Shown here: positions 24,481 to 42,598 of the stretch, piece after piece | Numbering within the stretch: position 1 is the first letter of the stretch | How the letters are laid out: every line of letters begins with the position of its first letter | From: Rheinheimera sp. EpRS3 | GTDB taxonomy: Bacteria; Pseudomonadota; Gammaproteobacteria; Enterobacterales; Alteromonadaceae | Direction: 5' to 3' | Assembly: GCF_001513785.1 (NCBI RefSeq) | Contig: NZ_LNQS01000001.1 | Location: 992,001 to 1,056,000, forward strand | DNA length: 64,000 nt | Translations under genes and position numbers: made by a program | The notes under the pieces: generated by a model | Databases searched by the model: none | What the model was told of the DNA's origin: nothing | The model's input: the letters and a program-made list of their open reading frames with translations, nothing else

Positions 24481-24556
24481 GGGTCATTAGCTCAGCTGGT
24501 AGAGCAGCGGACTTTTAATCCGTTGGTCGATGATTCGAATTCATCATGACCCACCA
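24481..24556 (+). tRNA. tRNA-Lys (UUU), copy 1, atypical T stem
   Basis: This is a 76-base cloverleaf with encoded CCA, acceptor GGGTCAT/ATGACCC and anticodon loop CTTTTAA (anticodon TTT). The T stem is GATGA/TCATC, so pair 53-61 is A-T (24533, 24541) instead of the near-universal G-C. All stems remain fully paired. Confidence 0.95.
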
Positions 24557-24581
24557 ACCGCGCAAACTTTGCTATCGAAAT

Positions 24582-24657
24582 GGGCCATTAGCTCAGCTGG
24601 TAGAGCAGCGGACTTTTAATCCGTTGGTCGATGATTCGAATTCATCATGGCCCACCA
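24582..24657 (+). tRNA. tRNA-Lys (UUU), copy 2, atypical T stem
   Basis: This copy is 76 bases long with the same anticodon TTT and encoded CCA. It shares the A53-T61 pair with copy 1 (24634, 24642) and in addition has acceptor GGGCCAT/ATGGCCC, a compensated change of pair 4-69 from T-A to C-G. Confidence 0.95.
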
Positions 24658-24677
24658 CTTCTTTGTTATTCCTGCAT

Positions 24678-24753
24678 GGGTCATTAGCTCAGCTGGTAGA
24701 GCAGCGGACTTTTAATCCGTTGGTCGATGGTTCGAATCCATCATGACCCACCA
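24678..24753 (+). tRNA. tRNA-Lys (UUU), copy 3, standard T stem
   Basis: This 76-base copy has the normal T stem GATGG/CCATC (G53-C61 at 24730, 24738) and acceptor GGGTCAT/ATGACCC. It is probably the ancestral form of the cluster. Confidence 0.97.
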
Positions 24754-38817: not shown

Positions 38818-39123
38818 ATGTCAGTAAATAATATCAGCAATAACAACACCGCCCAGTTGCAGTTATATACTCAGGAAAAAGCAGCCACGGCCGCGTTAAA
38901 ACAACAAAATACTCAGGCTGCAGCGTCTCCTGCCGTAAAAACAACCGATTCAGTGCAAATTAGCGAGCAAGCAAAAGCATTGCTGGCGAAAGAAGCAGTC
39001 ACAACACTTGGTAATGGTGAGGGTATTGAGCCACCTAACACGGTTGCAGGTAACGGTGAGGGCATTGAACCACCCGTTACAGTTTCTGGCAATGGTGAAG
39101 GTATAGAGCCGCCCAACACGTGA
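38818..39123 (+). CDS. Repeat peptide with three GNGEGIEPP units
   Basis: This 101-residue protein has no signal peptide. The first ~60 residues are Gln/Ala/Asn-rich and include DSVQISEQAKALLAKE, a motif seen in several small alteromonad proteins. The C-terminus is three 13-residue units GNGEGIEPP(N/V)TV(A/S), the last one cut short at its end. At DNA level the GNGEGIEPP blocks differ from each other only at synonymous positions. A GAGGTAGAGC ribosome site precedes the ATG. Two membrane-protein genes follow at 28 bases. The architecture of a leader-like N-terminus plus repeated C-terminal core resembles a modified-peptide precursor, but no modifying enzyme is adjacent. Confidence 0.8.
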   Translation: MSVNNISNNNTAQLQLYTQEKAATAALKQQNTQAAASPAVKTTDSVQISEQAKALLAKEAVTTLGNGEGIEPPNTVAGNGEGIEPPVTVSGNGEGIEPPNT

Positions 39124-39151
39124 TTCTAATTAACCTTATGGAGGGGGCACT

Positions 39152-39670
39152 ATGAGCTGGGACACTGTTGAGACAATATTATTTGATCTTGGTAAGCTGG
39201 TATTTGTGGCATATTTTTTATTATTTGTTCTTTCAGTGTTTATTGAGCGAAAAGTATCGTCTTTAGTTATCTCACTGATGGTTTTAGCTGTTGCAAATGG
39301 AGCAATGACTGCTTTAACTCCGTTGCTCTATCAATTAGCCAGTTTGCCTGGTGTGTTCTATAAGTTTCTGTGGTACGGCGTGTTTATCTTTTTCGATTGT
39401 ATAGCAATATTCTTACTTTATAAATTTCACAATTTATTGAGACAGAACGTCAGCAGTATTGCAAATATTGTCGGCGTTGCATTTTTGGCTTTAGCGTCAA
39501 TCCAGACAATTAGATTTTTTGATCGCTTTGTCAGTAATACTGACATTTTCCAGGTACTTTACCAGTACGGCATCCCGATTATTAACGTTATCTTAGTACC
39601 TGTAATAGTTGCGCTGTGGGTTGCGAATGTGAAAACTAAGAGTAAAAATATAAGGTTGGCTGTGGGATGA
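39152..39670 (+). CDS. Five-TM membrane protein, unknown
   Basis: This 172-residue protein has about five hydrophobic helices (roughly 8-30, 35-58, 66-90, 100-120, 138-162) and a short basic C-terminus. It has a very strong GGAGGGGGC ribosome site. It shares 4 bases with the next gene and follows the repeat-peptide gene, so the three probably form an operon. No family is recognised. Confidence 0.75.
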   Translation: MSWDTVETILFDLGKLVFVAYFLLFVLSVFIERKVSSLVISLMVLAVANGAMTALTPLLYQLASLPGVFYKFLWYGVFIFFDCIAIFLLYKFHNLLRQNVSSIANIVGVAFLALASIQTIRFFDRFVSNTDIFQVLYQYGIPIINVILVPVIVALWVANVKTKSKNIRLAVG

Positions 39671-39957
39671 ATTGGTTATACTTTTTTATTCTTATAATCA
39701 TCAACTTCTTTGCGTTTTTTGCTTACCGTAAATTGTTATTACTGCGTTCAATAAGTCAGATTCAGGCTGAGGTTGAGCTGGAAATGCATAGCCGGGCGCA
39801 TAAACTGCTGGTGCAACGTGATCAACTTGAAGTCGGTTTAGTTAAAGATGCAGCAGATGAAGCTGATGAAAAATGGAAAGGCGATTTAGCTGAATACATG
39901 GAAGAGTTTGAGCAGGAAGCCTTACTGCGTTCAAAGAAACGGCTAAACCGGGTTTAA
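39667..39957 (+). CDS. Small membrane-anchored coiled-coil protein, unknown
   Basis: This 96-residue protein has one N-terminal TM helix (about 3-22) and a charged helical, coiled-coil-like remainder (AEVELEMHSRAHKLLVQRDQ; basic end RSKKRLNRV). The ATGA overlap with the five-TM gene indicates translational coupling and a likely physical complex. Confidence 0.75.
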   Translation: MNWLYFFILIIINFFAFFAYRKLLLLRSISQIQAEVELEMHSRAHKLLVQRDQLEVGLVKDAADEADEKWKGDLAEYMEEFEQEALLRSKKRLNRV

Positions 39958-41608: not shown

Positions 41609-42598
41609 GTGTTGGAGCGTTTAAAAAGCGATTTTTATCTGGCTATGTTAACTCTGGTCGGGGCTATGATTGTGCTGTGTGTCACACCTTATGGCCTGTA
41701 TCGTCTGTATACCGGCAATATTGTCGTCGGCATTGCAGATTTACTGATGGTAACCTGCTCCATTATCGCTACCCGTGTGGCCTGGCGTAGCGGCGATACG
41801 GTAAAGCCCGGCCTGTTTATGGCGGTAGTGTTTTGTATTGGTGCTGTGCTGGTATGCATTAATTTGGGTGTCGATGGCCTGTTTTGGGTCTATCCGTTTT
41901 TGGTGTTTATATTCTTTCTGGTGTCTCCGCTTAAAGCCTTTGTGTTATTAGTTGCTATGTTACTGGCCTTGCTAAGTTATGCTTTTTTGCGTCCAGGCAG
42001 TGTTTTTGACAGCCAGTTCCAGATGATGTCTTTTATGGTAACGACAACCATTTCCAGCGTGTTTGCTTTTATTTTTGCTTATCGGGCTCAGGTACAACGG
42101 CAGGAATTAAAACGACTTGCAACAACCGACAGCTTAACGGGGGCGTCAAACCGGCGTACGTTAAATGATCAACTTGCGGTTGCCATTTATGAGTTTACTA
42201 AAAGTGGCCGGCAGTACGGGCTTATTTTGCTCGACTTGGATCATTTTAAACAAATTAATGATAACCATGGGCATAAGGTTGGCGATCAAAAACTGATTGA
42301 GCTAATCCCCGTGCTGCAATCTATGTTGCGCTCACATGACCAGGTATTCCGGTTCGGTGGTGAAGAGTTTGTTGTGCTGGTGGCAGATACCAAGCCGGCA
42401 GATCTTAACAGATTGGCAGAGAAACTGCGGGCCGGCGTTGAGCAGTGCATGATGTTGCCAGATGGCTCGCACCTGACCACTTCTATAGGCGTGGCCCAGT
42501 TACAACCGGGAGAGGATTGGGAAGCCTGGTTACACCGTGCGGATATGGCGTTGTACCAGGCTAAACATCTTGGCCGAAATCAGGTTGTTACCGGCTAA
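41609..42598 (+). CDS. Membrane-bound diguanylate cyclase
   Basis: This 329-residue protein has about six hydrophobic helices (10-165) and a C-terminal GGDEF domain starting TTDSLTGASNRRTLND. The active site is GGEEF (RFGGEEFVVLV), a functional variant. An RSHD five residues before it is the expected RxxD inhibitory site. The start is GTG. Its stop overlaps the end of the facing penicillin-binding protein gene by 4 bases. Confidence 0.93.
   Translation: MLERLKSDFYLAMLTLVGAMIVLCVTPYGLYRLYTGNIVVGIADLLMVTCSIIATRVAWRSGDTVKPGLFMAVVFCIGAVLVCINLGVDGLFWVYPFLVFIFFLVSPLKAFVLLVAMLLALLSYAFLRPGSVFDSQFQMMSFMVTTTISSVFAFIFAYRAQVQRQELKRLATTDSLTGASNRRTLNDQLAVAIYEFTKSGRQYGLILLDLDHFKQINDNHGHKVGDQKLIELIPVLQSMLRSHDQVFRFGGEEFVVLVADTKPADLNRLAEKLRAGVEQCMMLPDGSHLTTSIGVAQLQPGEDWEAWLHRADMALYQAKHLGRNQVVTG

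Follow-up and report, generated by a model that had tools for sequence, protein, structure and literature searches.

A repeat-peptide gene linked to a co-varying five-helix membrane protein in Rheinheimera and its relatives: a proposed peptide ligand and private receptor

The window, that is, the whole stretch of 64,000 nucleotides of Rheinheimera sp. EpRS3 DNA that was analysed, holds a cassette of three genes (Table 1). The genes on both flanks of the cassette are on the opposite strand, and genes 2 and 3 overlap by the tetranucleotide ATGA. A sigma-70 scan gave two sites versus 3.4 expected, none of them on the cassette's strand. Elsewhere in the window, three consecutive tRNA-Lys genes occupy positions 24481-24753, and a gene at 41609-42598, 1.6 kb downstream of the cassette, encodes a membrane protein with what appears by eye to be a GGDEF domain; the position of this gene is conserved in those first-relative loci that are long enough to include it.

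Table 1. Features of the cassette (positions are those of the window)
Feature	Position	Strand	Basis or remark
Gene 1, 101-aa peptide precursor	38818..39123	+	ORF; 15 of 31 Rheinheimera-type (g1) genomes have an orthologue
Leader region of gene 1, residues 1-64	38818..39009	+	FlgM-like motif DSVQISEQA at residues 44-52
Unit 1, GNGEGIEPP	39010..39036	+	codons of gene 1
Unit 2, GNGEGIEPP	39049..39075	+	codons of gene 1
Unit 3, GNGEGIEPP	39088..39114	+	codons of gene 1
Gene 2, 172-aa five-helix membrane protein, proposed receptor	39152..39670	+	AlphaFold2; K+R distribution
Codon of gene 2 R121, residue mirroring peptide charge	39512..39514	+	co-variation
Gene 3, 96 aa, conserved cytoplasmic part	39667..39957	+	N-terminal hydrophobic segment (about residues 1-25), allele-dependent
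Allele-specific block: repeats, gene 2 and gene 3 hydrophobic segment	38968..39747	+	60-nt windows versus G063

The first-pass annotation had reported three GNGEGIEPP units with four silent differences between units 1 and 2 and five between units 1 and 3. The codons bear this out, and units 2 and 3 differ at seven, making 16 silent differences in total and none that changes an amino acid. Only 20 of the 81 possible single-base changes in the unit's codon string would be silent, so chance is no reasonable explanation of the all-silent pattern. The unit length had been given as 13 residues, which is right for units 1 and 2; the third has 11 because gene 1 ends there, two residues past the last GNGEGIEPP block. 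The proposal that the peptide rather than the DNA is kept constant was upheld in the 15 Rheinheimera orthologues, 13 of which have two or more units: across 46 unit pairs, 217 silent and no non-silent codon differences were counted. The counting pattern fixed N, G, G, P and P, and inspection of the proteins by eye indicated that no Rheinheimera unit had been missed. Between species the unit does change, the Rheinheimera types being GNGAGIEPP (six genomes), GNGEGIEPP (four), GNGGGIIPP (three) and TNGMG[IV]EPP (two). Such change among orthologues had been named beforehand as a result that would speak against selection on the peptide, yet the units of a Rheinheimera precursor change jointly, and gene 2 changes alongside them. 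Non-identical units within one precursor were seen in some relatives in genus g45 (G111, G176, L041), and in many precursors (e.g., G097, G342, L082 and L114) the motif occurs once. Candidate precursors of 19 and 23 aa, MLNFPLLGGDGDGKEPPGK and MLNYPTLGGDGGGQQPPDEVDPK, lie upstream of the gene 2 relatives L266 and L265 (family f20).

The N-terminus of gene 1 had been called leader-like, and that description is supported. The window precursor has a FlgM-like N-terminus, resembling the N-terminal part of the FlgM of its own genome. When leaders were compared with their own genome's FlgM by a shuffled-alignment test, the likeness was moderate: in 13 of 19 precursors 10 or fewer of 300 shuffles scored as high, and in the other six, 19 to 164 did. 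The FlgM-like motif is found in 19 of 19 precursors, a count that is partly circular because 15 of them were located with a pattern containing the motif. Gene 1 nevertheless differs from FlgM, since its match to the NCBIfam model FlgM_jcvi (E 0.026, 15.3 bits) is below the cut-off of 40.75, and PF04316 found the real FlgM genes of G000 and missed gene 1. Among other relatives, leaders that look Sec-like by eye occur in L064, L065, L068, L071 and L085-L089, and leaders of double-glycine appearance in L053, L077, L082 and L167. NCBIfam leader models matched none of nine peptides with double-glycine leaders, so the assignment of that class rests on reading by eye. C39 exporters are present in 11 of the 14 genomes examined and absent in G044, G444 and G545, where the precursors look Sec-like or short.

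The earlier reading of gene 2 as a five-TM protein agrees with the AlphaFold2 model, which has five long helices (mean pLDDT 96.1, pTM 0.89). In 79 of 80 gene 2 members lysine and arginine are more abundant towards the C-terminal side, a bias from which an N-out/C-in topology is predicted, with residue 121 facing the periplasm. In the predicted structure this residue lies where helix 4 ends and the loop to helix 5 begins; if N is out, it would be at the outer end of the helix, on the side that an exported peptide could reach. The 80-row alignment of gene 2 has no invariant column, and the columns conserved in at least 60% of the rows (S37, L59, W74, Y75, H93, Q118, R121, D124, R125, Y137, I141 and N145) include no cysteine. 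Gene 3 combines a single hydrophobic segment at its N-terminus with a soluble part. In a predicted fold of peptide and receptor fused by read-through, the peptide block had mean pLDDT values of 62 and 74, which indicate neither clear docking nor clear disorder.

Family searches placed none of the window's three proteins, there being no Pfam match and no NCBIfam match above cut-off. The candidates that did appear were set aside. SspO matched gene 3 at E 0.04, below the NCBIfam cut-off. For gene 2, TsoY (NCBIfam; 1.5e-4 in 1 of 80 members), the best of scattered single matches, and Bac_rhodopsin (Pfam; 0.0028 in 2 of 80) were treated as chance, and AgrC, seen in 3 of 80 with a best E of 0.027, was not significant. 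A sequence search of the PDB with gene 2 gave no match, and Foldseek against the PDB gave no significant fold match, the best being TAS2R14 at E 0.32. The best VIA score for gene 2, Z 10.0 to a designed bundle, is within the range that helical bundles reach by chance. The best viral structure in Foldseek was BFVD A0A2I7QVX0, a protein of 178 aa with probability 1.00, TM 0.63 to gene 2 and E 0.17. PADLOC, run on seven proteins, gave a single match, at E 0.47.

The three genes are linked. The first-pass annotation had grouped the two membrane genes with the repeat gene. The first nine relatives agree, each carrying a five-helix gene and a small gene downstream of the repeat gene; by BLASTP the product of the small gene resembles that of window gene 3 in eight of the nine, the exception being L019. 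Linkage was then measured over 120 non-redundant gene 2 loci, with 126 further long ORFs from those loci as controls. Of the 112 loci with room to either side, 70 had both partners by simple rules, versus 1 of 126 control ORFs. A Gly-rich motif lay just upstream of gene 2 in 95 of the 115 loci with room; it also lay upstream of 18 of the 126 control ORFs, because the motif rule is loose. A small one-helix protein was found just downstream in 85 of 117 loci (and missed in 32), versus 6 of 126 controls.

Gene 2 relatives were found in at least 75 of 395 genomes of the window's family (18 of 52 genera), at least 35 of 394 genomes of the order and at least 1 of 369 genomes of the class, the last being the window's own; these samples take in the window's genome and the counts are lower bounds. 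By group, relatives occur in at least 15 of 31 g1 genomes, at least 21 of 22 genomes of genus g45 and at least 21 of 40 genomes of G545's family. A genome may carry several copies, G020 and G018 each having at least nine gene 2 matches. The nearest named relative, at 98% identity, is that of Rheinheimera hassiensis LMG 27268, and matches to gene 2 at about 23% identity occur in 55 plasmid records. Cassettes with the peptide TLGGGWGNEPPK were seen on the plasmids of L117 (3661-4719, NZ_CP096963.1) and L118 (NZ_KY014464.1), with GST and ABC-transporter genes adjoining, and blaPER-1 is at the edge of the L117 stretch. On the g45 chromosomes L016-L018 the neighbours are similar, by eye, to those of the plasmid cassettes, and a passage of PMC7782503 reports PER beta-lactamases from Pararheinheimera; taken together with that passage, the similarity makes the plasmid cassette look like a hitch-hiker. 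In L080 a trans-2-enoyl-CoA reductase gene (630-1964) overlaps the end of the gene 2 relative on the same strand.

Comparison of the 15 Rheinheimera cassettes showed that gene 2 follows the unit. Identity of gene 2 was 57% or more in 25 same-unit pairs and 55% or less in 80 different-unit pairs, a difference reached by none of 5000 permutations of the unit labels. The hydrophobic segment of gene 3 is likewise linked to unit type (0 of 5000 permutations). No link was found for the gene 1 leader, for which 1515 of 5000 permutations gave a difference as large, or for the cytoplasmic part of gene 3 (4059 of 5000), which is conserved across alleles. Gene flanks were left out of this analysis because values near 20% revealed wrong ORFs in some rows. 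The same division is visible in the DNA. Compared with G063 in 60-nt windows, identity is 86-96% up to about position 38967, 28-71% from there to about 39747, and 91-93% beyond; compared with G217, which has the window's unit, identity stays at 86-100% with no drop. Judged from sequence, such a profile is typical of an allele-specific recognition block set between conserved ends.

Within gene 2, residue 121 mirrors the charge of the peptide. Cassettes were labelled by the peptide residue just before the motif's first proline. The first set comprised 80 hand-picked gene 2 rows, near-duplicates and some distant rows being excluded, of which 72 were labelled and eight were not. Where the residue before the proline is acidic, position 121 is R or K in 46 of 48 rows; where it is basic (n=11), position 121 is D in six, E in one, G in two, A in one and R in one, i.e., D/E in 7 of 11. 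By charge difference column 121 ranked best, at 1.50 versus 0.46 for the next column. In the three GNGGGIIPP Rheinheimera genomes the E-to-I change in the peptide goes with R121F. A hold-out set was drawn from 62 aligned rows, 24 of which were set aside at >80% identity, leaving 38 cassettes; the pattern used to label it was composed after the code had come to light, but took no account of column 121. In the hold-out, acidic peptides went with R/K in 22 of 24 (the others being one Q and one gap), basic peptides with D/E in four of five, G in the fifth and R/K in none, and neutral peptides with R in two of nine (Fisher p 2.6e-6).

The combined set of 107 cassettes, non-redundant at 80% identity, gave R63 K2 Q2 Y1 for acidic peptides (R/K in 65 of 68), D7 E3 G3 R1 A1 for basic peptides (D/E in 10 of 15), and R in 5 of 24 for neutral peptides, among which L077 and L089, unlabelled in the first set, were now counted. 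Mutual information with the peptide label was 0.673 for column 121 and 0.269 for the next column, R125. Fifteen independent acid/non-acid pairs, taken from a tree built with column 121 masked, gave 13 for the code, one against and one tie (sign test p 0.0018). A later small set had six agreeing cases (L266, L270, L271, L278, the third copy of L281, and L283), four of which were new instances of an acidic peptide with R/K or a basic one with D/E, and three that disagreed (L268, L280 and L265). The exceptions are L105 and L169 (acidic peptide, Q), L107 (Y), L268 (E peptide, Q), L280 (D peptide, M), L087 (K peptide, R) and L265 (Q peptide, R), together with L077, L086, L106, L179 and L188, which have neutral peptides and R. 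No modifying enzyme of the ATP-grasp or radical SAM kind was seen by eye among the listed neighbours of the first relatives, as had been noted for the window itself. On that ground the class of the peptide had been left open; the co-variation of gene 2 with both the unit and the charge of the unit points instead to a ligand paired with a partner of its own.

The next gene downstream of the cassette encodes, in many loci, a repressor-type HTH protein and is oriented towards the cassette, often with a Cro-like small HTH gene divergent from the repressor and phage replication genes beyond. Pfam scans of 71 of the 105 downstream neighbours found HTH_3 in 24 and Phage_CI_repr in 13, the two sets overlapping; repeated chromosomal neighbours were left out, which raised the HTH share (24 of 71, against at least 24 of 105). 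The background is 21 to 35 HTH_3 matches per whole genome, or less than 1% of genes in a genome that we take to have about 4000. The repressors listed are of 119-216 aa, and Peptidase_S24 was not among the 25 of 69 families listed for the downstream neighbours. The L019 cassette is found, with identical copies of its genes 1 and 2, on an IMG/VR viral contig, and PHROGs identified repressor-like, Cro-like and O-like replication genes on that contig. Against a phage association, there was no match among 50,697 annotated phage records for gene 2 of the window or of the viral contig, and no viral relative of window gene 3 was found. The copies in the window, g45, g24 and g58 are at chromosomal sites with no such repressor in the stretches examined. 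In genus g24 (L251-L255) a gene for a protein of about 1400 aa with Reg_prop, GGDEF and EAL domains lies directly downstream in place of gene 3, after the peptide gene and gene 2, the latter in one or two copies; these five represent a single locus of a single genus, and a sixth g24 locus, L057, lacks the Reg_prop gene. The window cassette has no output gene within it.

Our working interpretation is that the cassette encodes a peptide ligand and a private membrane receptor, to which we assign a probability of roughly 0.6. That gene 2 recognizes the peptide directly is very probable, and signalling is the probable purpose of the cassette, a step held with less assurance than recognition. From the observations above we infer export, cutting, binding, receptor activity and output as follows. 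Gene 1 would encode a precursor with an export-type leader and then one or more short, Gly-rich, Pro-ended peptide copies. The peptide, cut out or still within the tail, would reach the outer side of the inner membrane, where the five-helix protein of gene 2 would recognize it. Residue 121 would touch the peptide at the residue that precedes the proline, and the outer face of the receptor would set specificity. The hydrophobic helix of gene 3 may pack with gene 2 and vary with the receptor, and its conserved cytoplasmic part may relay the receptor's state to a shared output. Two further observations are counted for a ligand and receptor: the pairing of peptide and gene 2 holds while leaders differ among relatives, and in five loci of one genus a Reg_prop/GGDEF/EAL gene is directly downstream. 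Counted against it are the exceptions to the residue-121 code, the lack of an output gene in the window's cassette, the middling confidence of the peptide part in the fused fold, the 32 of 117 loci in which the small downstream protein was missed, and the confinement of the Reg_prop arrangement to one locus of a single genus.

Peptide signalling with a dedicated receptor is best known from Gram-positive bacteria. In the agr and ComQXPA pherotypes polymorphism extends over a block that takes in the peptide and the membrane portion recognizing it, and the cassette likewise has a polymorphic peptide-receptor block between conserved ends, with alleles shared across species. Unlike those systems, the window cassette lacks a kinase, a response regulator (no Pfam match) and an AgrB/ComQ-like modifier, and its precursor has tandem copies. 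Yeast alpha-factor is made from a leader with tandem short peptides and is read by a helical membrane receptor; the cassette shares the leader, the tandem copies and a small helical membrane partner, but the sequences are unrelated and Foldseek against the PDB found nothing below E 0.32. The cassette also resembles the RRNPP/arbitrium systems in having a peptide and a dedicated partner in adjacent, co-diversifying genes that may be phage- or host-borne, and in that many cassettes adjoin the lysogeny region; it differs in its five-helix membrane partner without a DNA-binding part, in its Gram-negative hosts and in the lack of any TPR-type match (0 Pfam, 0 NCBIfam). In the abstract of PMC10075063 and in passages of PMC11945551 the RRNPP receptors are described as cytoplasmic, the peptide being re-imported. 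According to passages of PMC11945551, phage-to-phage peptide signalling is best known from Bacillus (arbitrium), and phage VP882 senses a host signal.

Co-variation between peptide and gene 2 would be expected of an immunity protein or a processing enzyme as well. The main rival, which we consider unlikely, is that the exported peptide is a bacteriocin that inhibits relatives, with gene 2 as the cognate immunity protein, so that the two diversify together. Export-type leaders, a small membrane protein, allele-specific co-diversification and several paralogous cassettes per genome (the nine or more matches in G020 and G018) are all features of such a system. Class II microcins, which have double-glycine leaders and a small membrane immunity partner, are similar to those relatives with double-glycine-like leaders and a small membrane partner. 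The cassette is unlike them in its tandem nine-residue units, in the Sec-like and FlgM-like leaders found elsewhere, and in the conserved cytoplasmic part of gene 3, whose conservation across alleles is unexpected of plain immunity. That conservation, the short, hydrophilic, Gly-rich and tandem character of the peptide, and the PADLOC search, which gave nothing but the match at E 0.47, argue against a bacteriocin and are not decisive. Gene 2 as a processing or sorting enzyme that cuts, moves or modifies the Gly-rich Pro-Pro motif, with residue 121 in the substrate pocket, would explain why a substrate motif and a membrane protein co-vary at one pocket residue, and the exosortase XrtM did match 1 of 80 gene 2 members (E 0.013). 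This reading is improbable given that the conserved residues include no Cys or obvious catalytic set and that R121 changes freely; moreover, unlike exosortase/PEP-CTERM substrates, window gene 1 has no C-terminal anchor of membrane helix and basic tail.

Two other readings were weighed. Several identical units in one chain could make the repeat tail a multivalent anchor for the membrane protein, structural or adhesive and without signalling; the single motif of many precursors and the possible f20 precursors of only 19 and 23 aa speak against this, and we give it very little credence. The frequent position beside repressor-type HTH genes would suit superinfection exclusion or another lysogenic conversion trait, but that function seems hardly probable for a cassette whose window, g45, g24 and g58 copies are at chromosomal sites without a repressor in the stretches examined, which had no PADLOC match, and whose peptide code the trait would not by itself explain. 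The ligand and private receptor remain our preferred reading. The HTH repressors in 24 of 71 neighbours and the one cassette on a viral contig lead from there to a more specific and tentative proposal, somewhat doubtful as it stands: that the cassettes form a Gram-negative peptide pheromone family with five-helix receptors, in temperate phages an arbitrium-like lysogeny signal beside a CI-type repressor, with host copies, e.g., those of Rheinheimera, retained at constant positions in the chromosome, a single charge pair between the peptide and receptor residue 121 largely determining specificity, and the same ligand and receptor combined with three kinds of export leader.

No account of this cassette was found in the literature searched, and none of its components could be placed in a known family. 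A pheromone with its receptor is a working mode of a known kind; its operation here is proposed. In sum, the residue-121 code allows peptides to be matched to receptors by sequence alone and makes recognition directly testable, and if the proposal is true, the cassettes would represent a large undescribed peptide-receptor family in Gram-negative bacteria.
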